From the NCBI GenBank assembly GCA_027605045.1, contig JAQFWX010000020.1, positions 496,001-560,000 on the forward strand: a stretch of 64,000 nt of DNA, read 5' to 3'. The notes below the pieces were generated by a model. That model was given only the letters and a program-made list of their open reading frames with translations. It searched no databases and was not told where the DNA came from. This document shows positions 777 to 22,824 of this stretch, piece after piece (position 1 is the first letter of the stretch; every line of letters begins with the position of its first letter). Source of the stretch: Phallus indusiatus. Taxonomy: Eukaryota > Basidiomycota > Agaricomycetes > Phallales > Phallaceae. Position numbers and translations under genes: made by a program.

Positions 777-1935
777 ACGTTTCTTTTCATAATTGAGCTG
801 CTGAAGTTGGTGAATGAACAGACGTTTTAAGTTTGAGTTTTATGATGTAATTTCTCTATTAGATGTACATCATCGAGCCAAGCCATTACAGCAAAGAAAA
901 TAATCTTAGACTAAACAGCGGAATGCTATTTCGACGAGGTGCCATTTGATGATGAGGCCTGTATAGTATACGATGAAAAAACGACTAAAAGAGCGTATGT
1001 TTATAACACAAGAATGTGGGTATTGAGATACAGTATAGAAATAACCGGATTTACTCTCGCATAGTAAACTGGACTACAGCTGCTCCTCCCCAAGCAGCCC
1101 CTCCCCTCCCCCAGCTGTCACTCCTCCAACGCATCCAGTAACGTTTGGTTTATGTATAGACGTCTTCTTACACTCTTTACAGATGAACACGCGCGTACGC
1201 CACTAACCCACGGTTTACCGTTGATAGTTGCCCTCAGGTCAGCTTGGCACAAATTCCGGTGTCCCGACAACGATATCTTTCGGTATGCTTGTGCTTGTCA
1301 CCTGAGTGAGCATAGGAGTTTACGGAATATCCGCGAGAAGATTCATCTTTACGAAAGAGTAATAGAAAACGCGTGGCATCAGGCGTAGGCCATTTCTAAC
1401 TGATAACACGTCATAGAGTCGATTGTATTCTACTTTGAAAGGAATTGAAGAATATGAATATAGAATGCGGCGTTCAACATGAGACATAAGTATAAAACGA
1501 ATCAAACCACTCACAGTTTTGCAGACTACAAGGATTTAGAAAAGCGGTTGTGGGCGACGAGCGTTGCTCTTGATTATATGCGTACAACTGCGGCTTTACG
1601 CCAACAATAAATATCTCTGATCTCTCTATCCAAAGTTTGCTGGTATTTGCCCACATTACACAGGTAAATTGGGTGGTTTTTGATGTGAAACGTTTGAACA
1701 CTGAACAGAAGTATTCGCTGAGACGTGATAACAAACCAATGCTTAGACACGAGTGTTCTCCTGGCATTTAACAAACCGAAGTTTGCTCAGTGATATAATC
1801 AGTTTGGATAGTTATCCGGGTGGACGCGTCAAACTCAAATCAATAATCTTAGTTTTGGCTCTGACGAGCATCCCCCATCCTGAAACCTTGTCGAAGCGGA
1901 TGGCGTCGAAACGAATACAATACCAAGAAAGTTTG
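777..1935. other. Gene-free stretch
   Basis: I see no supported gene here. Short open frames exist on both strands but lack splice partners, family motifs or codon patterns typical of the neighbouring genes. A C/T-rich tract lies around 1080-1130. Confidence 0.5.
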
Positions 1936-3082
1936 TAGGGCCCGGAGTTTCCAATTTAAAGTCTAATTCTGCAGCGAGTACTCTTTGTCGACGACAACTT
2001 GCTTCGCTGGCATCCGAGTCAGTCAAGTGCCACAGGAGATACATGCATGAGTTGAACGAGTCAACACGTGATAGTGTCTTCGGAATAAGTTGTCTGGCAT
2101 GATGGCTGACGATGAATGCTATTTCATATGAACATGGAAAACTGACGTCTTTAATAACAAAGAAGGCGTTTGGGGAAACGTTCAACCCGGATACCGTAAA
2201 GGGAAATAATCGGCCAGAAGGGCCAAGGGTACAACCTGGAGGGTACAGATATGTACGGAAGTCAAAACCATGGGTGGCTGCAGACGCTGCTGACCAAGTT
2301 GCTTGTTCAGTGTCAGAACACTCACGTAACGTTTTGACGCGTGCAGCAAAACAACTCACATCTCACCACCACCATCACCACGACGTTACGACATTGCTAC
2401 AACTTGTTGGAATACGAGTTACTCCTGTATATAAATAGTACTAGTCACGGCGTTTATAGACTACACCTTCGTGTCCGCTACTTCATCGTGCCTGGGATTC
2501 CAACACAACTACTCACCACTTTCACTACGAACATAATACCGCAACCATCGTAACTTCCGCTCTCAAGCCGCGGCCCGCTTCCGCTTTGGGGCACGTGAAT
2601 TTATTCGTTCAATGACGCATATACTCATATGAGTTAGGTTAAGCAGCATTGTCGTACAACTGGTGAGTCACATTACTCATTCATGCATACACCCATGCAT
2701 ATAGCGGATCTCAGTCTTTCTCACATAATATGCTATCAACGTATCAAAAACTATGTGCACATTGTAAAAAAAGCCGGTTCGTGTTCTCTGTGCTTTTTGT
2801 GTCCTGCAATGAATTTCTCACAAAATTTATGAATCTTTGTGCTCACATAGGCGATCATAAACACAAGTACGTTGGGAAGTAGGTGCAGAAGTGATGGCCC
2901 GTGGTGCCTTCCGGACGCTGAGGGAATGTATCCCGAAACCCACGATGTTCTTGATTCGCGGACACGAATTATTTGGCCGACATTATGGAATATGAGGACG
3001 GCACGCCGGAAAGTGATGAAAACCCTGGAGCACCAATGGACAATTAGAGACGGCGACTCAAGGATCCAACTTAGCTTTTAAT
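1936..3082 (+). repeat. Diverged duplicate block, copy A
   Basis: Several patches here match 5048-6365 in the same order and orientation: the stretch around 1950-2075 (shared CTTTGTCGAC, AGTCAAGT, CCACAGGA and ATACATG), the stretch around 2610-2640 (GACGCATATACTCAT), and the small-gene remnant at 2780-3080. The copies are clearly diverged with indels, so the duplication is old. A CAC-rich tract around 2365-2385 has no counterpart in copy B. Confidence 0.6.
2785..3081 (+). pseudogene. Decayed copy of the small Cys-containing gene at 6065
   Basis: The text around 2785-2930 aligns with the intact small gene at 6065-6364. Recognisable pieces are a stretch like NEFLTKFMNLCAHIGDHKHKY matching DFLTELFADLCIQTGVNKHTY, then DGPWCLPDAEGMYPE matching NGVWCPEGPKGRYPK. 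Two in-frame stop codons and a frameshift separate these pieces, and the acidic tail of the other copy is missing. It is best read as a pseudogene of a family that I do not otherwise recognise. Confidence 0.55.
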
Positions 3083-3590
3083 CATTGTTTCTGTTTATTT
3101 TTTTTTTCGTTCATGCTTTCATTCATTTTCCCCGCTATACCATTTCTGATATAAAACAAATGAGGTTCATTTTTCACACATCATGTATATATAGATGATA
3201 GATAGTATTATGTTATGTACTAAGGATGTGCTTATACAGCCGAAAGAACTGCAGTGAACTAGCACAACAATATATGACAGACGTACTTTACTTTTAACGG
3301 AGCGATTATTCTGCAAGGCGTACATGACAAAAGTTACGGAGATTCCCGCGATGAAACAATCTTGCAGTTCCCTGAGTCTGACAACGGACGTAGGCTCGGG
3401 TCTCCCAGCCGTGGGAAAGTAGGGGCTGGGTTCGAGTCTAAACTTGACATGAACAGTAGCGAGCGTGTCACGTGGAATTTTCACAGGCGCTCACGCATTA
3501 TGCTTATCGTTGTGCACTCACCGGAAGTAAATTTGAAGTTTAAACCCCCTTTCCTCATAACTCAAACTACATATTCCCTCGTTGAAAAAA

Positions 3591-4595
3591 ATGCATACAA
3601 CCAACAAAAGCAAAAATTACATCGATTTGCTTCCCGATGAACTCGTTTATCTCATTTTGGAACACCGGCTCTTCGTCCACTATGATACGTTTTCTCGCCG
3701 CAGACCAACTCACCTTCTTAAACATCGCGCTAAATTGAAGGCCCTTTCTTTGGTTTGTCGTCGCTGGAGACGAATAATTAAGCCTATATCTTACGACACC
3801 GTCATTATTACCTCCATACCGGAAGCGAATGCTTTGGCATTCAAGCTGCGACAGAGACACCAGCGCATCGGCTGCTGTATCAAGAGACTTCGCATCGAAA
3901 GAGGACAAGGACGAGCCATCTACACAATTCTCTCCAAAGTTCCTAGACTCATATCCTTATGTATAACATTCAATGATATATCTAAACGGAATGCGGGAAG
4001 TCTCTGTCGCGGTCTCAAATTAGTCAATCCTAAACACCTTGTCCTCCGCGATCTGGAATATCTGGGAAATCAGGGAACCAAACGGGTTATGAACGTCCTT
4101 ATTGAGTGTATGACATCTATTTGGTCGAATTTGGTGTGTTGTATTGCTATCATATAGTTTTGTCTAAACGCGATTCTGTTTGCATAGGTTTTGTACGATC
4201 ATCCTTACAATAAATTTGATTGGGGCGATTACCCTGATTCGCCTTCCCAATGCCGGGCATCTAAGGACCGCAACAAAGCTCTTTCAAGATCTCTTGCATA
4301 TATACCAAACCTCCAAACTGTATATGTTCCAAGAGTATGCTACAGCGGCTCTAAAGACAACATCATCACCAACGCCTTCAAAAGACCTTCGTTAAAAAGG
4401 ATTTATTGTAGACTCGGCTGGAGACATGTGTTTTTGCGTGATCTTGAAGAGGGCACGAAAATCTTTCCCCGATTTGGTGAAATCGTTCATCTTCCGTTGT
4501 CTGAGTCATGGAGACCACATACCCCGCTTCAAGTTCTAGACTATGCTCCCATTGGCGATAGGACTATGTGTGTATTTCTTCATGAGCACAAGTAG
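3591..4595 (+). CDS. F-box-like protein, copy 1
   Basis: Two exons (3591-4133 and 4188-4595) joined over a 54-bp GTGTGT...CATAG intron give 316 residues. Residues about 10-65 look like a fungal F-box: LLPDELVYLILEHRL near the start and ALSLVCRRWRRIIKP later, split by a basic insertion. The remainder resembles the LRR-like tails of basidiomycete F-box proteins (SLCITFNDIS, GLKLVNPKHLVLRDL). F-box proteins recruit substrates to SCF ubiquitin ligases; that role here is inferred from family. The ATG at 3591 is the only good start. A paralogue of exactly the same length lies inverted at 6942-7956. A further short intron after 4592 would replace the last residue with a tail ending near 4677, but at 33 bp it would be unusually short. 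Confidence 0.75.
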
Positions 4596-4599
4596 AGAT

Positions 4600-5047
4600 G
4601 ACTTATCTCTCAATTTTTTTCCAGATCAGAAATTCAGGAAACCTTTGTGTACTTGAATCGAGATCCAAACTACGGTTAGCGAAGCGGACCAAGATTTAGG
4701 CTACTTGAAACTGAACAATAGCTTTCTATCTCTCATCCTTCATCTTTGATCATATTTCGTTTTCCTTGCTTCCGTCATTAGCCTTTCTTTGATTTTAATT
4801 CACTTTCACAACGTCTATCTTGCTGATGAAGCGACGACTCTGTTTAATCTCGCTCCCCTTAAATTGTAGCGGTATCATTATTCTGAAATTCAACGGGTGA
4901 TTTTTAAAACATCTCATCGAAAGCATTGGGAAATGAAGTGGAGACTTGCAGGCATTCGTACACCGACCGGTACTACATTATGCGCCGAACGCAGAATTGA
5001 AAGTGTTCATTCTGACTAACTGTTAATGCCATTTCCAAAGCCGGGTC
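4600..5047. other. 3' flank of F-box copy 1, no gene seen
   Basis: The first 200 bp belong to the inverted duplication. The rest shows no supported coding sequence. Confidence 0.5.
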
Positions 5048-6365
5048 GTGTAGGGGTTCAGAGTCCAATCCTGCAGTGACTAGTCTTTGTCGACTTGAAC
5101 TTGCTCCGTCAGCACGGCCCAGTCAAGTTCCACAGGAAATACATGTTTGAAAACGGGTCAACATGAGTTGTCTCTGATTCCACGCCCATTGCGACGTTAT
5201 GGTGAGTGGACGTATCAAAGAGTCCAATGGATTGTTTAACCATGGTTAACGGACCGACGCGTGTTACAGGTCATCCTAAGTAAGGCCGTCCGGCGGCCTT
5301 AGAGTGTTCCTCTTGAATCTTGATTTATACGCGTGACGCGTCTGACTACAGCTCTACGCCAACAACGAAGAACACAACGACGATTAGACTTGGGGGGGGC
5401 GTAGTTATGAATCTGCTGGACACACCGTAGTGAACCTGTGCACGATTTGTATGTCCACACATGTTTCATGGAGAATCATGGTCACATATTCCGAATTTCC
5501 GAACGCTCGAGAAAGATGTCACGCTAAACCGGTGACGCGCGTGACGCGCTGAGTCTCAATTCAGAACAGGGATAGTACTTCAAGCTTCAAGTTCATTCCC
5601 CCCGTCCACCACATCCACAATTTTATTGCGTACCTCTGGCCTCCTTCTTTAAGTCAACATCTTTCATTCTTTGTAATCTCCTCCAGGCCCACATTCCCAA
5701 TCTGCATTTTCGCATTAAGGTTCTTATAGCCAGATACGAAGCTGACTCGAAATCGACTCTTATCTTTCTAATTTCCTTAGACTTCCATCACCCTCGTATC
5801 TTCGTCGAAAGCGGGTTCTATTGCTTTGGCCGCAAGCCTCAGCCGTGAGTGTATCTACTTCTCCGATCATGCATATACTCATGAGCTAGATTGAGTACAG
5901 ATACTTACATACCCTTTATTTGTAAGCGACGTCACCCATCCGATGACGCATATATTCGTGCAGTTTAATGTAGATTTTAGAAATTTTGGTAAACCAATGT
6001 GCTATGAACTTAAAATTGCTTATGCCTTTTGTAACCTCCGCGGTTTGTGTTCTCTGTCATCCTGATGATGGATTTTCTTACTGAACTTTTCGCGGACCTT
6101 TGTATCCAAACAGGCGTGAACAAACATACCTACCGGGAGAAATACTGCTGTGACCCAAACGGTGTGTGGTGCCCGGAGGGACCGAAAGGAAGATATCCCA
6201 AAGCGAATGAGCAACTACGACCACGTAGAACATTGGTTTGCGGAAGGTGTAATCATACGAAGATCGTCGAAGACAATCCCGAAGAAGATGATGATGGTGA
6301 TGATGAGGAAGATGGAGATGACGATGGAGACGGAGACGGAGCAGAGGGGGGTGCGGAGGAGTAGG
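5048..6365 (+). repeat. Diverged duplicate block, copy B
   Basis: This is the counterpart of 1936-3082. Shared patches include the segment near 5070-5165 and two copies of an ATGCATATACTCAT-like motif (around 5870 and 5944). An exon-like stretch at about 5685-5846 (reading ...FVESGFYCFGRKPQP before a GTGAGT) may be an upstream exon of the small gene at 6065, but I could not fix a complete model. Confidence 0.5.
6065..6364 (+). CDS. Small Cys-containing protein with acidic tail, unknown family
   Basis: From the ATG pair at 6065 an open frame of 99 residues runs to the stop at 6364. The first 70 residues contain a double Cys (KYCCDPNGVWCPEGPKG) and a CGRC pair, a pattern that could bind metal or form disulfides. 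The last 30 residues are almost only Asp, Glu and Gly, encoded by a GAT/GAC/GAG-rich tract. A decayed relative lies at 2785-3081, which supports this being a real gene or exon and not chance. Upstream exons are possible because the frame is also open before the ATG. I do not recognise the family. Confidence 0.45.
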   Translation: MMDFLTELFADLCIQTGVNKHTYREKYCCDPNGVWCPEGPKGRYPKANEQLRPRRTLVCGRCNHTKIVEDNPEEDDDGDDEEDGDDDGDGDGAEGGAEE

Positions 6366-6941
6366 TTAAATCATCTAATTTTGTTTAGGGGAAGCTCGTC
6401 ATTCTTTTATGTAATCCGCTCATTCAAATACCCATAATAAAAAAGAGCTGGGCTCTTTCATTTGTATAAGCCCTCGTGCACATGATGGATCAGGCCTGAT
6501 CAGGCACGAAACTGACGGTTGGGAAGGGACGTGATACACCGCTTGCACCAAAGACAGCGAATGTCAGGACAAATATCTTCCGCATAAAACATACTTTATT
6601 AAAAATCTGTTTACAATTGACGTTGCGCTAAACGCTCAGCTCGAGCTAGCAATAATCATTTCATCATTCGTTTCAACACTATTAAGTGAACAATTATGAG
6701 AAGAAAGGATGAATAGTGTTTTGGTTGAAGAAAGACTAATGACGGAAGAAAGCCAAATATAATTAAATGAAGAAAAGATATTAATGAAATTATGCGACTA
6801 TTGTCAGTTTCAAGTCGAGGGTTCGGGCCGCTTGGCGGCCTAGCCTGGCTAGTTGGTTCGCTTCGAGGCTCAATTCGATCGAGGTCTTTATGAATAATAA
6901 AATTCAAATGTCTCGCGAGTTCTAGAAAGAAGGTACAGATA

Positions 6942-7956
6942 TCAGCCTTTTCCAATTAACATATGAACAAATACACACATAGTCTCATCGCCAATAGGAG
7001 CATAGCGGGCTGGAGGATGTTTCCACGAACCAAGCAGCGGAAGATGAAAAATTTCGCGAAATCGGGTAGGGACTTTTATAACCTTTTCAAATCTTTGCCA
7101 AAGGGAATTTGTCCAGCCAAGCGTACAGTAAATCCTCTTTAACGACGGTCTTTTCAAAGCGTTGGCAACGACATTGTCTTCGGTGAGGTAACGTGCTCTT
7201 TGAACATATACAGTGTGTAGGTTTGGTACGTATGCGAGAGCTCTTGAAAAAGCTTTGTGGCGCTCGTCAAATGCGCGCTCTCGGGAAGGTGAATCAGGAT
7301 AATCACCCCAATCGGCGTCATTGTAAGGATGATCGTACAAAATCTATGCGAACAGAATTGGGTTAAGACAAAACAACAAAAGTATATGATAAAAAACTAC
7401 AACGCACCAAATTCGACCAAATAGATGTCATACACTCAATTAGAACGTTCATAACCCGTTTGGTTCCCGGATTTCCCAGATATTTCCGATCGCGGAGGAC
7501 AAGGTGTTGAGGATTGACTAATTTGAGACCGCGACAGAGACTCCCCGCGTTCTGTTTAGATATATCATCGAATGATATACATAAAGACGTGAGTTTTGGA
7601 ACTTTGGAGAGAATTGTGTAGATGGCTCGTCCTTGTCCTCCTTCGATGCGAAGTTTCTTGATACAGTAGCCGATGCGCTGATGTCGTTGTTGCAGCTTGA
7701 ATGCCAAAGCTTTTGCCTCAGATTTGGAGGTAATAATGACGGTTTCGTAAGATATTGGCTCAATGATTCGTCTCCAACGACGACAAACCAGAGAAAGGGT
7801 CTTTACCTTAGCGCGATGTTTAAGAAGACGAGCGGGGTTGCGATGAGAAAACGTATCATAGTGGACGAAGAGCCGGTATTCCAAAATGAGGTGAATGAGT
7901 TCATCGGGAAGTAAATCAATGTAATTTTTCCTTATTTTGGACGATTTCGTTTTCAT
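6942..7956 (-). CDS. F-box-like protein, copy 2 (inverted paralogue)
   Basis: Exon 1 (7956 down to 7408) and exon 2 (7343 down to 6942) are joined over a 64-bp GTGCGT...GCATAG intron and give 316 residues, the same length as the copy at 3591. The F-box-like part (LLPDELIHLILEYRL and LSLVCRRWRRIIEP) and the tail are strongly conserved with copy 1. The intron has the same position and phase but a different length. The two genes converge. Both frames are intact, so both may be expressed. Assignment to SCF-type substrate recruitment is by family resemblance only. Confidence 0.75.
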
Positions 7957-8263
7957 TGCTTGTGTTATTTCTTGGTCAAGTGGGTGTGCAGTCTGGAGTT
8001 CCGGGAAAAGGGGAGTTCAAAACGTCAAATTTACTTCCGGTAAATCGGAGTCCATGAGATAGGAGAAGGCCGGTAGGGCGGCGACGCCGGCAAGGAGCAA
8101 AGTTTGCATTTTTTTTTACTTCTGCCAAAGCTTATCTTTCTCAAACATTTATAAAATACAAGTGAACAAATGAAATACAAGTTTATGTTTTTCAAAAAGT
8201 ATGAATACAATTGTAAGAAAGTTAGTTGCTAACCTCCTGAGTTACCAGTTCAAAGCAGCTGCC

Positions 8264-8296
8264 GGAACGCGGCAGTGTGCGGCAGTGCCGCGTTCC
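8264..8296. repeat. Perfect 11-bp inverted repeat (hairpin)
   Basis: GGAACGCGGCA at 8264-8274 is followed, after 11 bases, by its exact complement TGCCGCGTTCC at 8286-8296. Inside the loop the core GCGGCAGTG is partly repeated. It stands alone in an otherwise featureless stretch (8050-8410). Confidence 0.6.
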
Positions 8297-8412
8297 ACGC
8301 GAGTCGCTGAACCCTCTTCGGCATCCAACCTTTAAGTTGTTCGCCGTACAGTCTCGATTTGCGAGCAATGCGCCACACTATTTGGGTTTTTGTTCGGTAC
8401 TATTGAAATAAA

Positions 8413-8825
8413 TTAAACAGCGGGGCCGAATATTACTCGTCGCATCATCAACATTGCATCAACGCCAATGAACAGCGAGCGAAATGGTGCTAATGCAGCC
8501 TTGACATCAAGATCCTTGTTCAGAGGTTCAAACGAGGTCGCTCCTTTCAGAAAGTTCTTGGCTGGTAACCCTAGTCTCGTACTACAACTCCAATCATCAA
8601 TTGACAAATGGTAGCGCACTGGTACTAAGTCTTTTACGAAGCGGACACATTCCAAGGTCTGGCGAAACAGTAAGATTCTCGGTTTGAGTGATTGTAAAGA
8701 CAGGCAGTCGGTTTGCATCGACGATGAAATATAGATATCTTTCGACCGTTCACATAGTTGATTGATGTTGCTGTTCCGAGTTACTTAAGTGCGCTTCCAT
8801 GCTCTATAGACTGAGAACGTAATGT
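8413..8825 (-). pseudogene. Deletion relic of the neighbouring NLR gene
   Basis: Read on the minus strand, this segment matches two separate parts of the NLR gene at 10483-13641. It first matches the helical region before NACHT (FRQTLECVRFVKD and LPAKNFLKG), then jumps directly to the region after NACHT (NKDLDVKAALAPFRSLFIGVD). The whole NACHT ATPase (about 1.2 kb) is missing, as is the 5' end. Its last part keeps the usual NLR continuation, which shows what the neighbour looked like before it was joined to VHL domains. An open frame of 101 codons survives, but no complete gene can be built. Confidence 0.7.
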
Positions 8826-8891
8826 TTAAAGACCAAGGGCCGTTCGCTGCAGAACGGGTCACATAATCTGAGTAGGCATTTAGTACGAATC

Positions 8892-8976
8892 TATGAACTA
8901 GCGTTTCTATGACTCTGTATACATACTAGAGCGTATGAGGATGGTTTACGAATATTGACGGCTTACAGTAATGCCA
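8892..8976 (+). repeat. Intergenic repeat, copy 1 (partner at 14627)
   Basis: About 85 bp are close to identical with 14627-14714 in the same orientation, including the shared GACGGCTTACAGTAATGCCA. Together with the NLR relic this shows that the 8.4-9.0 kb segment is a shortened duplicate of the 11.3-14.7 kb region. Confidence 0.75.
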
Positions 8977-9242
8977 ATTATTTGAGGGGGCCCTTAAATA
9001 CCTCGGGATAGATCATTTCATAGATTGAACACACAAATACGTTCATACTTAAGAAAGCCCTTGGATATCAAACGCAGCCAACAAAAACAAAATGTCAAAG
9101 CATAATTGGTTTACAAGATGCCAAAGAACTACGTGATCGATGTTTTGCATTTTGCCCAGCTTGTACCATGTAGAAATTTGTTAAAATTTAGTTTTATAAA
9201 CCTTTCTCTGGCCGCGTTGGCACTGCATAACACAGATGGACG

Positions 9243-9493
9243 CTACAAATAACTTCGCATTCTCGAAGGGACCCAAAATAAGAGTTCGTCGTGAAGATCT
9301 GTCATCCAGCCTTCGTCCATCTTCGTAAAGAGCGAGAAAATTGCTTTATAGTACCACACCTTCAGCGCATAGTCCAACCTCACCACTGGCACGTTTTCGC
9401 AGCTTGAGCGATATTCCTCAATTGACCTGTCAATCATCATTAAAAATTTAATGGAAACATCAAATGAGAAACATACCATCTAATAACTTCCAT
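9243..9493 (-). CDS. Short two-exon open frame, possibly a gene fragment
   Basis: ATG at 9493, a 17-nt exon, a canonical 50-bp intron (9476 down to 9427, GTATGT...GACAG) and a second exon to the stop at 9243 give 66 residues. The second exon has coding character (VRLDYALKVWYYKAIFSLF). It may be the 3' end of a decayed F-box/LRR-type gene and not a gene of its own. I do not recognise a family. Confidence 0.3.
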
Positions 9494-9534
9494 GTCAGTG
9501 CTGTCGAGAGCGATGCCAGATTAAAGTTATCGGA

Positions 9535-9738
9535 TTGCCGGAAAACAAAACTGCTGAATTCAGACTTGGGTACTTGAAACTTGAAACTCTCATTTTGGAC
9601 ACATTTGATGGGATATCCTTTGATGACAATTCTTTTCTGGACGCGGTTCTGAAAATTGGAGTCAAGGTTTTGATAGTACAGAAAGGCAATTATAATGAAG
9701 CTAGAGATTCTGGATTTATCAATGTTTTACAAAAGGTA
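9535..9738 (+). pseudogene. LRR-like coding fragment
   Basis: The frame reads YLKLETLILDTFDGISFDDN and then NSFLDAVLKIGVKVLIVQKG, an alternation of Leu and polar residues as in the LRR-type tails of fungal F-box proteins, and ends at a possible GTATTC donor. There is no start codon and the upstream frame is closed, so I read it as a remnant. Confidence 0.3.
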
Positions 9739-9769
9739 TTCGTGTCTGTTTGGAATAAAACCTAATATG

Positions 9770-10482
9770 TCTTTTATGCTTTAAATCCATCCTCACAACT
9801 GGAATCGTTCAAGTTTTCTCATACTATTAGACGACCATCGTTGCTATAATTCAACGTAGTACTGCTGCATTTGCGAACTTATGGCTGTTGATGGAGCGTT
9901 GACGACATACCTGTAGCAGCGCCTTAAACACCATCGATGATAGACATCTACCGCTCTGTTTTATACCCTTTCCACTCGTGGTTTTTTTAAAGTTTCATAA
10001 GCAAGAGTTGTGAAATTTATGAAAGCCGGAGTTTTCCACTTACATAGTTACATTCGAACACAAACGTGTTTCACTTCCGAAGAAGGACCCCGACGAATCT
10101 TCATCGATCATCCCTATGACCCCTTCGAAACATACACATCCTAATCTCCTCAAAAGATTGCAACGTTTTATATTTTCAAAACAATTTCCTTGAGAATGTT
10201 TTCTTCTCCTCACCTTGCAAGTCTCAATTATTCTCACGGGATTTGAAGTGCGTTGGATCCTTGTAAACACTTTCCCTTTTGCTTGATTATATATATATAT
10301 ATCACTAGAACACGACGAACAGATGACTTAGGTCATATTCAAACAACACAGATCCTACGCTCCATCATATTGCGGTTAAACAAGAAATTCCTACAAACAG
10401 CATTTAATCGTGGAAATAGACATAGACATATCTCTTATTGAAGTTATGCAAACGCTTAAAACTAGATCTCTTTCCCTAGCAC
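9770..10482. other. Gene-free stretch
   Basis: I see no supported gene. A short TA microsatellite lies at about 10290-10303. Confidence 0.5.
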
Positions 10483-13400
10483 TCATATGAGAACGTTGGC
10501 ATCAGAGTCGATGGATGCGTAACAAGTCTTGCTCCCATTCGAGGCGACTACTTGCCAGAGATGGCCAACGAACGTATTCTGGGTATGTGTTTCTCCAGAT
10601 TTGACCGTTTTGTAGAAATTAAGCTCTCCTACGAAATTGATCCAAAAGATACTCGCATCTTTGGTACTGTTATTAACGAACTCGACTGTCGTTGCGAGGA
10701 CACTAGGTGATGATTTAAGGCCCCCGCATCCACTAAGGGGAACAAGTGCCTAACCGAAGGTATCAGCAAAATAATGTCGAACGAAGATCAATTTCGTGAA
10801 ATGACTGACAGGCTTTTCTGTAGCACCAACGAACACATAGTATTCAACCCCAGCGGTTGGGAGGAATACAGAAGAGCGGCCTCCGACGATAATCTCCCAA
10901 GGATGAGTAGTATAAGTTTGTTGTCGGTAGTTGTCATACGATCCGAGGGTTTTGTATAACTGTCGGTTACCTGCGAAATTGATCCAACTGATGTCCACGC
11001 TTTGTGTCGTTAGATTGTAGAATGTGATAAATGCGACTGTCTTGCTTTGGAAGGATTTGAGACCAACGATGCTCCGATTTCTCGATAAAGGGTAAAGCTT
11101 ATTGAAAGAATAGTTTGTTTAGGAGAAAGGTGTACAAAGAGAAAAATTGGACTTGCCCCCATCGCATTCTTAGTAGCAAGATTCTAAATAATATCAGTGA
11201 CATCTGCAATGATCTATCATACATATATCATGTGTAAATTACCTGATTCTCAATTGAAACCTTCCGACTATCGGCATCGATAACAAGAAACTCGTCTAGC
11301 GCCAAGGCGGCCTTGACATCAAGATCCTCGTTCTTAGGTTCAAACAAGGCTGCAAGGTCGTGATTGGATACAGTTTCCGCGATACTATGAGTGCCTCAAT
11401 GATAGTTTGAAATATAGCAAAAGAATCCTCGTCCTGAATACCTTGCTTATCATCGAGAACTTTGTGATACATTTTAAATAAGGAAGCTGGAGCGGCCTTC
11501 GATAAGAGAGTCTTCAGCCGAACTATGTGGTTATATTCGACGATGTAGTGACATGCGAGATATGCCCATTGAAAATGACCTTGAGCTTTTTCTGCTAATT
11601 GTGACGACCAGGATGTGTCGAATATTTTGTCCAGGATCTCCGCGACGTCGGAAAGCTCGGAAGAAACATATTTTTGTATGTCGTTTTGCGTATCATTCGG
11701 GTCGATGTCCGCCATACGTATACAGTGAACGTTGAGCTCCTGATTTTCATATTTCTGTTCAATATCATATTCGGGACGAGAGGTGATTATAAGACGATAA
11801 TTCTGTGGGAGCTCAGAACTCCGTTTGAAGAGTAAATCCAGCAATGTTCGGCGGCTCTTCCTGTCCCCACTTTCATCCAAGGCATCTATGATTATAACCA
11901 CAGGCTTTGTCGTGCTTCTTGAAGGCTTGACAATCAATTCGTTGAATTGGGTCGTGGGATCATGAGACTTCCTAATCTCAGTCTCTCCAATGAATTGCAC
12001 GAGATTCTGTAGCCACATAGCGTCGTCTGCCAAGTTGCGAGATATAGTACTAAAGCAGGAATTGCGACGATTTTGATCATTTCGATTAAAGCAAAACATC
12101 GTGGCGAGCTTCTCGTCATTTTTCATATTCTCGTAAATGGTGTGAGCAACGGCCGATTTTCCCATTCCGGCTTGTCCGCTCAAGACGAGAACCCGTTGTG
12201 TAGTATCTGTATCAACCCAGTCCAAAATCTTCTTGATAAGCTTTACACGAGTTCCTGGTAAGCATTTCTTCTCTGCTTGGAATCCAGCATTTGCAGTATA
12301 TGGCAATTCTCCAAGAAGGTTGAAATTATCTGATATGAATAATAGAATGTGAAAAACTATTAGGCAACTAAAAAGAAAACTTACGAATCAAATCAAGCAT
12401 GTTGAATACGACAATGTGTGCTTCTATATTAAGAGCGCTGAATGGCATCAAAAAGTCGACCAAGCGACCTTTGGAACTCTTGAATTTTGTTGTCGATGAT
12501 CGGTCCTTTCAGAAAGTTCTTGGCTGGTAACCCTAGTCTCGCACTACAACTCAAATCATCAATTGACAATCAGTGGCGCACCGGTACTACTCCCGCAGCA
12601 GTCTTTCACGAAGCGGACACATTCCAAGGTCTGGCGAAACAGTAATTTAAGATTCTCGGTTTGAGTAATTGTAAAGACGGGCAGTCGGTTTGCATCGACG
12701 ATGAATTTATAGATGTCTTTCAACCGTTCACATAATTGATTGATGTTGCTGTTCCGAGTTAAGTGCGTTTCTATGCTCTATAGACTGAGAACGTAATGGT
12801 GTAAAATGTACAAAGCACTTACATCTGGTATAATCAATAAGACGTTCCAAACTTGCTGAACGTGGGAATTTAACTAGATTTTGTTTAGAAACCACATAAA
12901 TTTGACAATGAATTTGATATAATGGTCCACAAACCACAGAAACAGAGCTTATGGCATTTTTCACTATTTTGAAATACGAAAAGAACGTCAGCCAAGTCTT
13001 TCCTTCGTTGAAGTGTACGTCTTTCATCTGTTCAATCACCTCATTGAGAGCGTCTTGTACGAGGGTATCCTTGAGAGTAAAACTTAGTACCAATTCTTCT
13101 CCGCTCAGCTGGCATGATCCTGACGTTTTTGAGAAAACGGAGAAATTTGAGCCCAGTAAAACACACCAGATGATCTTTGCATCTCAATGAGGGACGACAC
13201 GAAAGTCTCATACCTCCTCACTCCCTTCTTGCGACCAGCAAAACCATTCTTAAGAACCGTGAAAATAACTGTAGACTGAGGAGTGACATCGCTGTTTTTA
13301 GTTAGACAATGATCGCCGAAGATTTACCCAATCTTATATTCTCACAGATGAATTTGTTCGTTGGAACATTGATTATCAAAAAGTATCTCTTCCGAGATCT

Positions 13401-13641
13401 TTGAGATCTTTGAGACCTTATCGCTGCCAGCGATCTCAGTTCTCAAGGTATAGTTGCACTTATTTGAAGGAGCTGGGCTCAGTAATTTGATATCTGCAGA
13501 GCATTTCAGAAATCTGTTCTCAGGTAAAACATCTCACGCCTCACCAAAAATCGTTATTAACCACCGTTCATGTCTATAAAAACGGCGTTCTGAGTAACAC
13601 TAGTCTTATAGTTCCATTGAAACTTACGACAAAGATGTCAT
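10483..13641 (-). pseudogene. NLR-like C2/NACHT gene joined to tandem VHL beta domains
   Basis: Eleven exons can be placed: 13641-13628, 13513-13346, 13291-13222, 13174-12935, 12873-12823, 12777-12582, 12532-12385, 12329-11243, 11183-11157, 11097-10810 and 10749-10483. The order is an N-terminal C2-like domain (QIHLDVTPQSTVIFTV), a helical region (VQQVWNVLLIIP, FRQTLECVRFVKD), NACHT (Walker A LSGQAGMGKSA, Walker B VVIIIDALDES, then YRLIITSRPE), and a post-NACHT region up to DLDVKAALA. The text then switches within a codon or two to DEFLVIDADS, the sequence preceding the VHL domains of the gene at 41579-42721, and runs through two VHL beta domains (SWINFAG...YKTL...TYTTHPW and FWINFVG...YKTV...TFVGHLW). 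Two single-base frameshifts (near 12425 and 11345) break the frame, so I call it a pseudogene, but sequencing error is possible. The intron at 11156-11098 uses a GC donor. NACHT proteins are signalling ATPases; VHL beta domains bind hydroxyproline peptides in animals. Confidence 0.75.
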
Positions 13642-13649
13642 CTTGAGTT

Positions 13650-14090
13650 GACAATTCAAACGAAGTGGGAGGGTAGAGTGAAGTCAAATGGAAAGAGGCA
13701 AGGCTTCGTTAAGGTTTCGCTTACGTTGTCAGTAAGCTCAAGAGAAGCGCGCTGAGACCAATGCCATAGGTCGCATAGCTTTCCACGTCAAAATGAGATT
13801 ATTTTGATTATCTTTGAGATGCACAGCTTTCTCTCTTAAGACAGGAATTCAGTAAAATTCCATTCATGGATCATGTATCGGATAAATATAGTGGTATACA
13901 ACTAACTGTACGATTATTTTGATCTCAGATGTCCTTCAGCACGCTTATACCTTAAATAGCTAGTTAATGAGTTAGGCTTTTATATCCGTAGACCGTCGAC
14001 ACACCTTGAACCGGCTTCACACTCCTTACATCCAATCATTGCCAGAATCCGCCTTTCGAACATCCTTTATCAACTCCGTGCATTCAACAA
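13650..14090. other. Upstream region of the NLR-VHL gene
   Basis: I see no supported gene. It should hold the promoter of the minus-strand NLR-VHL gene, but I see no strong core element. Confidence 0.4.
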
Positions 14091-14349
14091 TCATGTCTTC
14101 ATATCCACATTTACTGGCGGCCGAGTTGGATACACTACCAGGCCGGTGCAGTCTTGGCATCCCCGAACGATCTTCGTGACATCGTAATCATGATAAGTAG
14201 TTTGAGGACAAAAGGCTAATGAACAGGGTGGGCAAGGACCGATGAACCACAATGGCTGAGTCACCGTCTGCAGAGCGGTATACAAAGAATCATAATTGTA
14301 CAGCGTCCAGGCAAGAGAGACGCTTTAGAAGTAAAGATTCCTTCTCCAT
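14091..14349 (-). CDS. Possible Cys-rich small protein
   Basis: ATG at 14349, exon to 14302, a 34-bp GT...CTGCAG intron, and exon 14267-14091 give 74 residues. The second exon is Cys-rich in a spaced pattern (GPCPPCSLAFC and GCQDCTG), which is unusual for chance sequence. The intron is shorter than its neighbours (45-65 bp), so the first exon may be wrong and this may be only the last exon of a larger or decayed gene. No family recognised. Confidence 0.27.
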
Positions 14350-14626
14350 AGAACCACGAGAGCCGATGTTTCTATGCCGTGAATAGGCTCATTCGGAAGC
14401 GCTAGCCCGAGAGGCTACAGCAAAAAGTAACCCGGTATACAATCCAAACTCAAAGGCTTACTATGTTGGCCGTTGACTATGCTTGAACTGAAACGTGAAA
14501 CTTGAAAACATCAGCCGCAAAGAAGCTGGGGGCACATCCAGTTGATTATCCGTCCGTTACCTTGCAGGTCTAGTACCGTTCTCTACTGAGCAGGTCAATC
14601 TAAGCAAGCAAATTAATACGGGTCCC

Positions 14627-14714
14627 ATGAACTAGCGTTTCTATGTATGACTCTTTTTACATATTAGAGCGTATGAGTATGGCTTACGAATATTGACGGC
14701 TTACAGTAATGCCA
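14627..14714 (+). repeat. Intergenic repeat, copy 2 (partner at 8892)
   Basis: This is the partner of 8892-8976. It marks the outer end of the duplicated NLR region. Confidence 0.75.
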
Positions 14715-14719
14715 GCTAG

Positions 14720-16222
14720 TCTTGATTCCGATGGCACCAATGGCGCGAAGAGGATTTGAGCCAACGATAAATACAACATAGATCGTTGATGATAATTAGG
14801 GTTTACATATGCTTGTAGCAAAAACACGGTCTGGGTGCGGAATAAGAATGAAACGGCGCTTACCAGATTTTTCCATCATGGCATCTGTCGTGGTGGAACT
14901 CCGCCCGGTGTCAGCCGGGCTTTCTGTTTTTATCGTCAACTCTTCACGCCGCCATTCACCTCTGCTTCGGTCAGATTCAAGCAGTACTGTCACGGTGATA
15001 TTTACTAAAAGTATAAGCGTTACTCCGAGCATTCCATGGAAGGAATCATGTGTAGGCCATCGCGAATGTGTTTCACTTAAAAATCTGCCAAAAAAGTTGC
15101 TCGTTCCTCCGGTTAGAAACAAGTATGTTCCTTCTTTTGTTCTAGAGTATATACATGACACGGCAGGTCACGAGGATAATCAGGTTCTTATTCGGGACCT
15201 AAACCTTGCGGTGGGGTGGCAATAAGCGATAGCGACATAGAAATCAAACTAAATCTATCGATATTCATCGGGCTTCCTTGAATGACAATACCCATATTTA
15301 ATATGTAACCTTGTTTGAATCGGTGCCCGATTAGTATTCTCGACCTGTCAAAACCAACTCTCCTGAAAACTCGGTTCTGACCGGAACGACGTCCATCTAT
15401 TCAACATATGCACGAGTCCTTTTTGTATTTGAATACCATATGACAACTTGTCCCTCACTAACCTAATAAACAAATGAGACCATACAGAAGCTATTTCTTT
15501 AACTTCGTTCTGGCTAATGGGAATCTGCTGATTATGTGAAAGGAACACCCCATGGTATGCACATAAAGAATACATCAAGCTTTGCGCGATTTTCGCCACC
15601 CATTGCGCTAAAAATGCACTGGTTCGACGAATCACGTTCCTTCCTTGCAAGCACAGCCTGAATCACCTGGGGCCAATACAATGTAATCAATGTCAAAAAC
15701 TTCAGTGGCAGCAAATAGCTTTAGACTGAAACGGGTTCTTTCCCCCTAAGTAGCAATTGCGCAATAATACCTTCCGTTATGCTGTCGGGGACTCGGCTCT
15801 ACATTTTAATTGATTTCAACGGGCTTAAACATTCAAGGTGTAATTTTACATGGCTTGCTTTCAAAAGCTTTGCGTCAGTGCGTGCGCATGTGCGCCGTGC
15901 TTCAACGGTACTGATACGAGAATCCGGAGCCTCAGTTCGAGTTCGAGTTCTATGTCATTCCCGGGCCGGCCCTTCACGTATCAGCTCAACATTCAAATCA
16001 TGATGAAGAAAAAAACCAGCATTCGCGCATTATGATTCATGTCGCATCGTCGCATGCACGCACTCTCATTATACCTCAGACAGCTGTGTTCACTAGAAGC
16101 CGTGAAGGCTCGACTGGGTCATATATATCAATCGAGATTTTCATACCCCTGGTTCGATTCATTCTAACGGCCGTGTTTAGTGTTACTGGCGAGTCTAATT
16201 AGCAAAGGATCACTGTTTGCTG
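14720..16222. other. Gene-free stretch
   Basis: Open frames of 100-140 codons overlap on both strands at 14796-15225 and 15348-15650 but show no family motif, no splice structure and no consistent coding side. I do not support a gene here. Confidence 0.45.
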
Positions 16223-16447
16223 ATGCAACTTGCACTGCTGTCCCTTTTTACTCTGATTGGTCCGGCAACCACCATTGACCGGCAGGGTGAAGATGCCGAT
16301 AAAAAAACAGACGCGCGGACGCGACGTGAACGGAACCTGGCACGTCTTCGGCTTAGGGCCCTCAAACATCTTCGCTTAGGTTCCTATCCTTCCATTCATG
16401 TACTTGAAGAACATCAAAAGGTTTTTGACCTGGAGTTCTCTTCCTGA
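16223..16447 (+). CDS. Possible short secreted or membrane peptide
   Basis: The ATG at 16223 opens 74 codons. The first 17 residues (MQLALLSLFTLIGPATT) look like a signal peptide; the rest is short and very basic (TRRERNLARLRLRALKHLRL). There is no relative in the window, and the frame lies only 330 bp upstream of the laccase, so it could be chance. Confidence 0.22.
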   Translation: MQLALLSLFTLIGPATTIDRQGEDADKKTDARTRRERNLARLRLRALKHLRLGSYPSIHVLEEHQKVFDLEFSS

Positions 16448-16735
16448 AGATGGAAATTCGCTTGTCCGATAGCGCAGGCACGGTGTATCCAGGTGTCCGG
16501 TACAGTGCCATCAAGCCAAAATGCCTTGCTTTGCGCTAAAATCTGATTTTCAATTGATTGAATTTAATAGCCGTTGACACTGTTGTCCTACTGGTTCTAC
16601 TGAAAAGGAGGGCAAGGCGCCTTCAGTAGTATGGTCATGTTTATTCATTCAACCCTCCAAATGACTTAGTTGATCAAACATTCCGTACCCGCGCTGATGA
16701 TTGAACCTCATTATTTGAATTGGATGAGCAATCCG

Positions 16736-16744
16736 TATAAAAGG
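16736..16744 (+). promoter_or_regulatory. Laccase TATA box
   Basis: TATAAAAGG ends only 33 bp before the laccase ATG at 16778. With a usual TATA-to-start distance the 5' leader of the mRNA would be very short. Confidence 0.6.
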
Positions 16745-16777
16745 TGTCATTGTTGCATGCCTGACTCTCCACGAAGG

Positions 16778-19401
16778 ATGCGTCTAATCTCCAAGTCATT
16801 ACCTTTTGCTCTCTTGGCCCTCGCTGGCTTCAGTGAAGCGGCGGTTGTTACACAGCAGTGGACATTGGGCAATGAAGATATTTCACCCGATGGCTTCACG
16901 CGAAGTGCTGCTTTGGTCAATGGTCAATATCCTGGCCCTTTACTCTCCTTCAACAAAGGGGATACTGCCTATGTCACCGTCAACAACCATTTAAGTGACC
17001 CAACCATGCGTCGCAGTTCTAGTATTGTGAGCTTTCATCTAAGCTTTTCACCCCTTGGCTTGGCAATCAAACTTATGTATCTCCCGTTTAGCATTGGCAT
17101 GGTATTGTATGTGCACACCCTATTCATCTCGCTTCAGTGAACTGACTGACCTTGTTGCACCCTTAGTTCCAGCACCGTAATGCAGAGTCAGTCATTCATG
17201 TTTATTACATTTCCCCTTTTGTGATGCTAAATTCACTCTCAGAAACGACGGCCCATCGTTCGTTACTCAATGTCCAATTTCTCCCAAGTGAGTTGACGGT
17301 TGAATTAACCAAACAACATGGTGACTCACCTACACCGGCAACCAGTCACTCATATACATACTTCATCGCACCCGGAGAACAATCGGGAACGTATTGGTAT
17401 GGTAATTTAATTAATCGAGGTTGTATACGGTATTGATTGGGAACACATAATCACAATCACACAGGTATCACAGTCATTTGAGTACCCAATACGTTGACGG
17501 AATTAGAGGTCCATTGGTAATTTGTTAGTGTTCAAAAATTTATCGGGTATATCGGCTTTTTTTCTCATTATTGATGTGCATCAGATGATCCAAACGATCC
17601 TAATAAGCATTTATATGATGTTGACGATGCATCCACGTAGGCCTTCTTGTTCAATCATTCCCGATTTGATTTGGTTTTATTCTAACCGTTTCTTCTTTAC
17701 AGGGTCATAACACTGACAGATTGGTACCACGACACAGCGCTAAATTTAGAGGGTGAGTTCGTTCAATACCGATGATAAAGGGTCCGTTGATCTAATATTC
17801 ATTAGACGCATGGTTTGCTGGTGGTCCTGAACCTGTACCCGATTCGGGATTGATCAACGGAGCAGGCCGCTATGTTAACGGATCACTCGTCCCGCGAACG
17901 AGAATCAACGTTCAGCATGGCAAGCGTTATCGTTTGAGGTTTGTTTCAGTGTCTGCCAATGGTATGCATGGTCACTTGCCATCATTCGAGGAGAACGCTG
18001 ACACAGGTTCCATTCAACGAAGGCTTCTTTAACGTTTCCATACAAAACCATCGCTTGACTGTCATCGAAGCAGATGGTGCGTACCTTAAAGAATAAATTC
18101 ATCCCATAGTTCATTGATGATTTTTGCGCCACACAGGCATTGCTGTCGAACCTTACGTTGTCGATTTCTTACCCATTCTCCCAGCTCAACGATACAGTGT
18201 TGTTGTAAGTATCTATAGATACCACCTTATTGCGTCTTTTGACAGCTAGAACAGATAACTGCCAATCAATCGGTCGACAATTACTGTAGGGATTCTTATC
18301 AAAATCTTCAAACTGTGGCTAACAATAGTGGCTTCTTTAGGGATTAGCGCTCAACAAACCGTTCGCGGAGCTACTACTTCTTCGACGAATCCCAATTGTA
18401 AGTTGTCAAAAGTTTAATAGGGCTCCTCGCTCACAAAAAAACTGTATTACTCAGTCAATGGCACGGATACTTTCGCTGTTCTTCACTATGCCGGTGCTTC
18501 TTCAGGCGAGCCGACTAGCTCCCAGATATTTGCGTCAGGACCAGTTCAATTCAACGAAACAGGTTTAATTGTGCGTTGTTGATCGACTCATGAATACGGC
18601 CTATCATTGAACGTTTATATTTAGCCTGTTCTCCACCCGGGCGCTCCAGGTGGCGACACCCCTCCTGATTATCTTTTCAACTTCACCTTCGGTACTAATA
18701 CGTCTAATGGTGATGTCTGGGTAAGGTTCTAAGAACGCGCCAATACCATCCGGTACTCATCCCTTCCGTAGCTAATTAACAATATTCAATATAAATCACC
18801 GTCGGTGCCCACTCTTTTAAATATTCTTACCCATCAAAAGTAGGCTTCAGTTCTGTGCTATGAATTACAATTATTTACCATCTTTTCAGCGCAACATTTG
18901 GTCTAAATGAACATACACTAACGTTGCCTTTTAATGCTACCATTGAGGTTGCTTTCATCGGTACAGCAGGACACGCCTTCCACTTGCAGTATGTCCTTAT
19001 TTCTAAATCTAAGAAATGACTGCTGATACACGAATTAAGCGGCCATGCATTCTCTGTTATCCAATCTGCTTCCGGTGGCGCTCCCAACTACGTGAACCCT
19101 CCTCGTCGCGACACAGTTGCCAGCGGTGGCACGCCTGAGGCACCTGTCCGTATCCGTTTCCGTACCGATAATCCTGGACCTTGGTTCATTCACTGCCATA
19201 TTGACTGGCATTTGGGTATGAGATAGTTTTATTCAGTTGGCGTACGCCTTGACACTGATTTCTTTTGCAGAGGCTGGTCTGGCTGCCGTATTTGCTGAGG
19301 ACCCGGCAGGTATACGTAGTGGACCGCAGTCTGTTCAACCCGATCCACAATGGGAGCAGCTGTGCAATATTTATAACCAACTTCCAGAATCCGAGAAGTA
19401 G
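16778..19401 (+). CDS. Laccase (secreted multicopper oxidase)
   Basis: Laccases oxidise phenols with O2 using four coppers. I could place 19 exons (18 introns) in one frame, giving 533 residues: 16778-17026, 17092-17106, 17167-17186, 17243-17287, 17346-17396, 17465-17523, 17585-17636, 17703-17752, 17806-17961, 18023-18076, 18137-18204, 18246-18285, 18341-18397, 18455-18570, 18625-18720, 18772-18839, 18890-18988, 19040-19215 and 19271-19401. A signal peptide ([14 protein letters not shown]) starts it. All four copper motifs are present: HWHG, encoded by a 15-nt exon; YWYHSH; HAFHLHGH; and [12 protein letters not shown], where Leu occupies the axial T1 position. The usual Pro of HPFHLHG is Ala. 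Exon 12 may start 9 bp later. The frame is intact, so the gene is probably functional. Confidence 0.94.
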
Positions 19402-20295
19402 AAGTATTTTTAATGGAAGGGTTTTGATATATTCGAACTTTTATTGGTCTAAATATTGCTTTTATCTAATTAAATGTGTTATTCAATAGTCATTGTCTAA
19501 TCACTACTCTATAATCTATCGAATAAATCAGCAAATTTCAATTATTTGGGTCCCAACGTGACTGAGATTGCGGCTCTTCGAGTTGATTCGAAGTCAGTTC
19601 AGGGAATTCCCGGCAGGCGCTCGCACAACTTCTGCCCAAACCCACCATGTGCTCCAACCACCTTTTAGACGCGATTCGATCGTTGAGAAGCTCTTTCCCG
19701 ACGTTGTCATAGGCCCACTTTTACCGGCTTATCATATGCAATGAATGGTGCCATGGTCGGCCGTGTTAGCGAATCGTCACCGCTGATGTCAGTGGTTCTG
19801 GTAGTATCCCATTTTGAACTTTTCACAAGAGACCGGTGAGATGCACAAGTCGAGCGATTCGTCGGCTCTTGTCGTTTGCATGCTGGCTCGTGTCTTATCA
19901 GGTTGATAAACAAAGTCATTTAATCCAGCGTTAAAAAGAATGCCGTCGTACCAGCTGACAAAAGGTGTCCTCTCGCTCTCATCCTATTCAGCCAGCAGCA
20001 TATCATGCTGATAGGGAAATAGGTCACGCATGCTATGCCGCAATCCTGCTTGATACTCATCACTGCGCCTCTAACCTTTCCGAGCAGTGATAGTTACATT
20101 CTTCGCCAGTAGAAACCAGTCATATGCCCCTAAAAAATACAATGGCGAAAAATTGGCGATCTCTTTTATAAAGCCAAAGATGGTGATATATCCATATAAA
20201 CGAGATTCCAAAATGTTCCGCTGACTCCCGGAACATCCATCCCAATACACGACACTAGTATAAAGGACAGATTAGTTTCGCCTTTTCTTATTATT
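19402..20295. other. Laccase terminator region and S28 peptidase promoter
   Basis: I see no supported gene. TATAAAG at 20167-20173 lies about 120 bp before the start of the S28 peptidase. Confidence 0.45.
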
Positions 20296-22358
20296 ATGGC
20301 TTTGATGATTTCATCACCATCACTGGTTTTACTACTTTTCCTCCAATTCACGGCTGTTCTAAGTGCAAAGTCTTTCGGTACCCACTCAGTCAAGTTATGG
20401 CAAATTCAGCAACGGTATGTCTGTCTCAAAACATGAACTGTTGCTTAAATTTAAGTGAACAGAAATAAACCGTCTGCGACTGTCGACACTGCCCGGGCTC
20501 TTCCTTCGGGTCTCATTGAAGGAACATTCACCCAACCCCTTGATCACTTCGACGCCAAGAATTCATTCACCTTTGAGCAACACTACTGGGTCAATCCAGT
20601 ATACTATAAACCTGGTGGACCTGTCATTCTTATAGATGGAGGAGAAGATACAGGTTTAGACAGGCTGCCATATATCGTTACTGGTATAGGCGCAAAACTG
20701 GCTAACGCGACTGGTGGACTCGCATTGGTACTGGAACATAGATATTATGGACAGTCTGTCCCAGTCGCGAACTTCTCTACGGATTCCCTCAGATGGCTTA
20801 CCAACGATCAAGCATTCGCCGATTCCGCCAACTTTATGCAAAACGTTGACATTGGCGCAACGATTGGCATAAAAGGAGATTTCACGGCTCCAAAAACGCC
20901 TTATATATACTATGGAGGCTCGTATGCCGGTGCTCGCGCAGCCATCATGAAGGTCAAATATCCAGATATTGTGTTCGGCGCAATTTCGTCCAGTGGTGTT
21001 ACACATGCAACTATCCCATTGTGGCAATATGGAGATGTTGTTCGAACTGCAACGTCAAATTGCTCTGGCGCAGTCGCAAAAGCGATTGAGACGGTTAATC
21101 AGGCATTGGATCAGCCAGCTCTGAACGCAGAATTGAAGGAATTGTTTGGACTTTCGGGTTTAGCCGATGATGATTTTGGTTCAACGCTAACGGTAGGAGG
21201 GTGCTGTGGATTTTGAAGCTTAATTTGATGAATAATGATATATCCTAGTTCAACTTGGGAGGTTGGCAAAATCATAATTGGGATCCTGCAATCGATGATG
21301 ATGCCTGGACCCCTTTTTGTGAACTGATAGCGACAAAGCCTTCCAACATCTCTGAGCAAAGTGGTAAGCTTGGTGATTTGGAACTTGGTTATGAGTTCAT
21401 AAACTACGCAAACTACGTTAAAACCGTAAGTTTTGTCGACTTCGATCTCGTGACACAATCTTTGAAAAGCCTGCAAGCAATTGGTGCCTTTGTATGGAGG
21501 CCAATCAATTGAAGAAGTGAGTCAAGCAAAAAGTGATGACTTTTCCTATACTTATGCTATACTTTTAGTGCTTTGGCACAACCAATGCCAGTCAGTTTGA
21601 GGTAGACGATCTATCGCAAACGTGGAGACCGTGGCAATTCCAAGGCATGAATAATGTTTTTACTGAGAATGGATTACTAAGTTGAAGTTATATCAGTTTG
21701 CACAGCGTGGGGATTCTACACTGTATGTTTCTATCATTTAAAATTTGTGCGTAAAGATTATAACGTCAAAACACCATTCTCTTAGAATGCGCCACCGGCA
21801 AATATTCCTCCAGTTATACCACAGTCAGTAACCGTTCCGTATCTTTCTAAAATTTGCAAACAGGTAAACATAATGGTTCTGCGATGTACTGTTTCTCACT
21901 TTATTGTTCAAGGCGTATCCCCCAGGAGAATTCTTCCAAGTTCCAGACGAACCGGATGTTGAATCCGTGAATAAATACGGTGGCTTCAATATCGCTGCTG
22001 ACTACTTGGCAATCATAAATGGCCAATGTCAGTTGTTTTCATGATCGTGCTAATGGCTCTGATAAATTTTCTTTATTTCTATTAGTTGATCCCTGGAGAC
22101 CTGCAACGCCTGGTAGCTCTTATGCTAACCTTCCTCCTCGGGAAGATACCACATTGCGACCTTTCAAGTTAATCCCAGGTATGAGAATGGAAATGCTTAA
22201 TTGCTAAGCCAAACAAATCGACTAATTTATCATTTGAAGGTGCAGTTCATCATTGGGATGAAAATGGCCTTGCGGATACTTCCGACGAACCACCAGAAAT
22301 ACAGGCTATTCACAATGAGGAGATTGCCTTTGTAAAAGCATGGTTACAAGATTTCTGA
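20296..22358 (+). CDS. Secreted serine carboxypeptidase, family S28
   Basis: S28 enzymes cleave after proline near the protein ends. Ten exons (20296-20414, 20463-21192, 21249-21425, 21478-21516, 21569-21644, 21697-21722, 21786-21863, 21913-22027, 22086-22178, 22240-22358) give 523 residues in one frame. A signal peptide (SLVLLLFLQFTAVLSA) starts it. The nucleophile Ser lies in YYGGSYAG, the Asp in FDPWRPATP and the His in AVHHWDENG, so the triad is complete. The segment WQFQVCTAWGFYT is recovered only if the fifth intron (21645-21696) uses a GC donor (GCATGA...ATCAG); no GT donor keeps the frame. The gene is probably functional. Confidence 0.9.
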
Positions 22359-22824
22359 CCTTTTCAAATGTAAATTTTCTTTCATTTTACTGTCTATTAG
22401 ACGCATTCATTGTCACGGATATTCCATGTAAAAATATGCTTTGCTTTGCTTTTGCCAAGCTCCTAAGTTGTCTCCGGGTGATGCCGATGTAATGCCGGTG
22501 TGACTAACGCGTGACGTGAATTGTCACGGTGGTCAAGCGACCTTTTTTTCAGACTGCTTTTCCAATTCTCTTTTCAATCTTTCTTAAGAAAGCTCAATAG
22601 AACAGATGCACACTTCTTGCTTTCTTTGGTGTCAAAATCCATTATGTGTGTAAAAATCACTGATTCAGACACTTTCGCCTCTTTTTATTGATCGTAACGT
22701 TCAACTTCCGACTAGAGGATACCGCGGATAATTTGTTTTTCACAATGAGCAGATACGCATTTCTTTCCATTATCTTTACTATACCTCATACACGTATCCA
22801 AAACTCCTGTTCAAATTTTGTGTT
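22359..22824. other. Intergenic: S28 3' side and ABC transporter promoter
   Basis: I see no supported gene. A loose GTGACGTG...GTCACGGTGG dyad lies around 22512-22533. Confidence 0.4.

Follow-up and report, generated by a model that had tools for sequence, protein, structure and literature searches.

The window, a stretch of 64,000 nucleotides corresponding to C112:496001-560000 in a 67.2-Mb assembly that contains two haplotypes, carries on its reverse strand (the strand of all features below unless stated otherwise) a chimeric gene, locus A, whose front part derives from a fungal NLR. The N-terminal NLR exons (13290-13168, 13117-12935 and 12873-12823) were placed by tblastn of an intact paralog and by reading the exons in both alleles; they are homologous to intact NLR paralogs, with the start codon and first exon provisional. 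The exon before NACHT (12583-12777) is open in both alleles and has 150 genomic matches scored from 182 candidates. It is followed by a linker exon (12385-12523), in which the window allele lacks two bases at 12435 compared to the allele on contig C128 and runs into a stop that the C128 allele reads through. The NACHT/NPHP3_N exon (11443-12329) was recognized by Pfam and by its motifs, a Walker A-like GQAGMGKS and a Walker B-like VVIIIDALDES found by eye, and it is open and free of indels between the alleles, which identifies this part of the gene as the NACHT core of a fungal NLR of the STAND type. The NACHT region closes with DLDVKAALA, and its final part (11301-11442) contains two allele-specific 1-base indels (11351 and 11412). 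In the N-terminal part, for which a C2 domain had been proposed, no Pfam family was found, either in the window copy or in the intact paralog L052. NACHT genes are abundant in this genome (at least 128 matches scored among 202 candidates, both haplotypes pooled), and the species-named relatives of the NACHT part among the matches listed are mushroom-forming fungi.

Downstream of the NLR part lie the exons of a VHL gene, beginning with a truncated first exon (DEFLVIDADSRKVSIENQ, 11243-11296) from which the gene's own N-terminal domain is missing. Two VHL beta domains follow, VHL1 (10810-11097; PF01847, supported by a structural model and an alignment to pVHL) and VHL2 with the stop codon (10483-10749; PF01847). 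Between them is a possible 60-nt intron (10750-10809) with TAG at its 3' end, and unless this stretch is removed an in-frame stop codon (10750-10752) stands ahead of VHL2. The VHL exons are open in both alleles of locus A. The initial annotation had proposed tandem VHL beta domains here, and both the PF01847 match and the predicted fold (VIA-align) identify the 3' part as a true VHL beta domain; the structure was predicted from a 9-row alignment, the single-sequence prediction reaching a pLDDT of 46. By alignment VHL1 retains most of the human pocket residues, with W, Y, H and W present and T replacing S; the human hydroxyproline pocket is formed by W88, Y98, S111, H115 and W117. PF01847 was the only Pfam family matched in the tail, and the VHL alpha domain, which binds elongin C, gave no match there. 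The tail thus differs from pVHL in being fungal, in having two beta copies and in having no matched alpha domain. No RNA family reached its gathering score in window 8000-14500.

The passage from NLR-derived to VHL-derived DNA can be located to 11297-11300, with the NACHT exon (12329-11443) on one side and, from 11297, the VHL-beta exons (11296-10486) on the other. Such a junction could in principle be a chimera introduced at assembly. Contig C128 (93700-133400) is collinear with the window region over -8838 to 907 (95.6%) and 14423-26061 (96.4%) and carries locus A as a 4.1-kb allele block (95.8%); the contig differs from C112 by 0-9%, depending on the segment. A query spanning the junction (11130-11460) matched C128 over bases 2-331 at 95%, and it matched two further VHL loci of this genome, genes B and C, only from base 164 onward, which is window position 11297. 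Because both haplotypes carry the identical join, a local misassembly is excluded for practical purposes; we found no point in favor of it and give it a negligible probability. The proposal that two unrelated genes are joined here is borne out.

The VHL exons did not arrive alone. The segment from 11297 to 9520 was copied, with 91% identity, from 1.8 kb of a locus lying 132 kb away (C112 about 639086-640884, also present on C192), where gene C, a full-length VHL-beta gene, is located (L019 about 4400-5576, at C112:639k, and L020). It comprises the 5'-truncated VHL gene, which starts at the end of the first long exon of gene C, then about 1 kb of sequence from downstream of it, partly intergenic, and a fragment of the neighboring gene (9526-9735, forward strand); at the source this neighbor has an open frame of 567 aa, with relatives close by. 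The extra N-terminal part of gene C matched no Pfam family over the cut-off. Directly after the copied segment the interrupted NLR gene resumes with its last exon (9168-9425), which was found by tblastn with the intact paralog (E 4e-16) and also matches the last-exon region of L052 at the DNA level. Homology to L052 ends at residue 341, and the NACHT core is not followed by a winged helix/ARC part; beyond that residue L052 has matches in the window only in this last exon and in a second NLR relic (8377-8830), where a pre-NACHT exon is joined to the part following DLDVKAALA, with the NACHT core missing, and where the start of the winged helix is kept at 8508-8377 (L052 residues 350-392, E 0.001). 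The winged-helix and WD40 parts of the paralog found no match in the window at E 0.01. As a C-terminal repeat sensor, WD40 was likewise unmatched at that threshold, and the tail exons match VHL only. The expectation that fungal NLRs usually end in WD40 or other repeats agrees with the two intact relatives that we examined, both of which run from NACHT into WD40. Because the last NLR exon follows the segment, the winged helix and WD40 are unmatched and intact relatives continue into WD40, homology shows that the copied segment has overwritten a NACHT-WD40 NLR gene in its middle, with removal of its winged helix and WD40. A clean fusion of two gene ends was rejected, as about 1 kb of the VHL segment is unrelated DNA and the segment is followed by the last exon of the NLR itself. 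At the source, a group of related genes lies beside gene C (C112:640-664k and C192:93-115k), several of them with open frames of 540-570 aa.

A second fusion uses the same base. In gene B (L018:4030-5493, at C112:140.9-142.4k, and L022) the VHL cassette starts at AGACGAG, as in A and in the same frame, and the second VHL unit is partly deleted. The front part of gene B is unrelated to NLRs, contains one likely membrane-spanning stretch recognized by eye, and matches nothing in the genome other than its own two alleles. A public protein, P0121 (379 aa), corresponds to the gene B fusion after removal of three introns, of which one has a GC donor, and it retains the 60-nt stretch before VHL2; because of these removed introns it looks transcript-derived, which would support expression of gene B. 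Searches for proteins related to the VHL tail (1502 and 814 candidates, with shared 5-residue words needed) returned P0121 alone. Genes A and B have the breakpoint in common, even though the source of A is the C locus. A copy of A from B was considered and is not supported, since the match between A and C extends farther downstream and the informative sites group A with C at 40 positions, A with B at 19 and B with C at 10. For comparison, the window contains a divergent full-length relative, VHL gene D (41579-42721).

Whether the two parts of locus A could yield one protein depends on the reading frame, and NACHT read straight on misses the VHL frame in both alleles, each carrying a different 1-base indel ahead of the junction. 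In the window allele a base missing at 11351 offsets the NACHT frame from the frame that joins DLDVKAALA to VHL; the C128 allele has this base but lacks one at 11412, and its NACHT frame is likewise offset. Read straight, both alleles reach a stop soon after NACHT. A candidate GT-AG intron of 92 nt (11441-11350), common to both alleles and covering both indels, runs from AAG|GTATTC to TTGCAG in the window and to TACAAG in C128, and its splicing could restore the NACHT-VHL frame in both. Because in-frame introns of 45-199 nt can be chosen in nine ways in the window allele and in two ways in C128, we regard this intron as a possibility and not as a result.

The two haplotypes also allow selection on the two parts to be compared. 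Between C112 and C128 the NLR exons differ by 27 synonymous and 22 nonsynonymous changes (22/49), where the codons and the observed transition bias predict 70% nonsynonymous (P 0.00017), and the NACHT exon alone shows 8/17 nonsynonymous (P 0.034). The VHL exons of A have 5 synonymous and 17 nonsynonymous changes (17/22), a near neutral ratio (P(>=) 0.33), and the contrast between NLR and VHL exons has a Fisher P of 0.019. These counts exclude 11442-11299, the first exon, and a gapped codon of the linker together with the part of the linker that follows it; a microexon was counted in its 12-nt form, the 27-nt form giving the same 5 and 17. By a simpler counting, dN/dS in the VHL tail is 1.01 for A, 0.90 for B and 0.10 for C, the last from 4 changes only, of which 1 is nonsynonymous, too few to test. 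The NLR exons are thus constrained between haplotypes and the VHL tail is without detectable constraint. Since the 5' NLR exons are more diverged between alleles (about 6%) than NACHT (1.9%), some of the NLR signal may predate the copy event. A dN/dS near 1 can also be compatible with diversifying selection on a recognition module.

We consider it probable that locus A is a decaying chimera that arose by ectopic copying into an NLR gene. As the homologies show, such copying placed a 1.8-kb segment of the gene C locus in the middle of a NACHT-WD40 gene, removing its winged helix, spacer and WD40 and stranding its last exon behind the segment. The event is likely to be older than the haplotype split at this locus because both haplotypes have the junction in common. 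Selection would keep, or have kept, the N-terminal and NACHT part, which as written runs into stop codons shortly behind NACHT in either allele; the VHL exons, given their substitution rates, would be passengers probably without function. If anything is made today, it is most likely a shortened N-NACHT protein encoded by the C128 allele, with neither the autoinhibitory winged helix nor a sensor. In a STAND switch without a winged helix autoinhibition is not expected. One might go further and regard this short protein as the functional product, with the VHL DNA merely its 3' region. The constraint on the NLR exons and the stop soon after NACHT in both alleles are in keeping with this, as are the C128 exons assigned so far, which, linker and NACHT included, are in frame throughout; however, the constraint in the diverged 5' exons may predate the event, the window allele has a stop in its linker exon, and the first exon and start codon are provisional, so that we find this reading quite improbable.

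The initial annotation had suggested instead that a VHL sensor was placed on a NACHT switch, and here the evidence has largely turned against it: the VHL part arrived within a copied segment that also brought about 1 kb of unrelated sequence, the winged helix was replaced, NACHT and VHL are out of frame with each other in either allele, and between haplotypes the VHL codons drift whereas those of the NLR do not. The idea stands only if the 92-nt intron is used. Splicing would then yield an N-terminal module, a NACHT core without winged helix and one or two VHL beta domains, which might bind hydroxyproline or another peptide as a sensor or decoy. It speaks for such a protein that the shared intron restores the frame and contains both indels, that the VHL exons are open with their pocket residues mostly retained, that the sibling fusion B is known as an intron-free public protein, and that Sordariales NLRs with non-canonical C-terminal domains are described in passages of PMC12258605. 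With nine and two in-frame choices, however, one shared solution is weak evidence, the window allele has its further frameshift at 12435, the VHL codons evolve neutrally, the winged helix is missing, and the sole protein found among 1502 candidates, P0121, is not a NACHT protein. A functional spliced protein of this kind is unlikely, and a working NACHT-VHL receptor is probably absent. We hold as very doubtful the broader view that this fungus has repeatedly captured the VHL cassette as a recognition module, the truncated cassette being joined from one and the same base and in one frame to a membrane-type protein (the intron-free sequence) and to a NACHT protein spliced through a new intron, and diversifying under selection in the NLR as a sensor or decoy for hydroxyproline peptides.

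A NACHT-VHL product, if made, would to our knowledge be the first NLR with a hydroxyproline-type sensor. Among fungal NLR/STAND proteins of the HET-E-like type, NACHT is combined with WD40, which prevails in basidiomycetes according to passages of PMC4986451. Locus A belongs to the same family as these in its N-terminal exons, linker and NACHT core, but a VHL segment replaces winged helix, spacer and WD40. With NLRs that have integrated or non-canonical domains, in plants and, in passages of PMC12258605, in Sordariales, it shares an unrelated domain downstream of the nucleotide-binding domain; unlike in those, the domain of locus A arrived with an intergenic flank, is out of frame as written and is under no detectable constraint. 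A VHL-ended NLR is not named in the titles and abstract openings of the literature surveyed, mostly non-subscription, and "VHL" occurs 0 times in the passages of PMC4986451 and in the passages and section 20 of PMC12258605. Locus A shows at base level how a fungal NLR can acquire a foreign domain through the overwriting of its sensor by a copied segment, and not through clean exon shuffling. Together with gene B it forms a matched pair in which one VHL cassette is joined at the same base to two genes, B being represented by an intron-free, transcript-like sequence and A apparently decaying.

The surroundings of the locus also differ between haplotypes. The NLR relic at 8830-8377 was not found in C128 93700-133400, and VHL gene D was found on one haplotype only in the assembly. 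Between flanks that are 95-96% collinear, C112 and C128 show a large structural difference over window 907-10258. The stretch 42824-43028, beside gene D, recurs at C128 109436-109622 (79%), where the match of the A allele to the window ends (10258), and it may be the end of a repeat or transposon.
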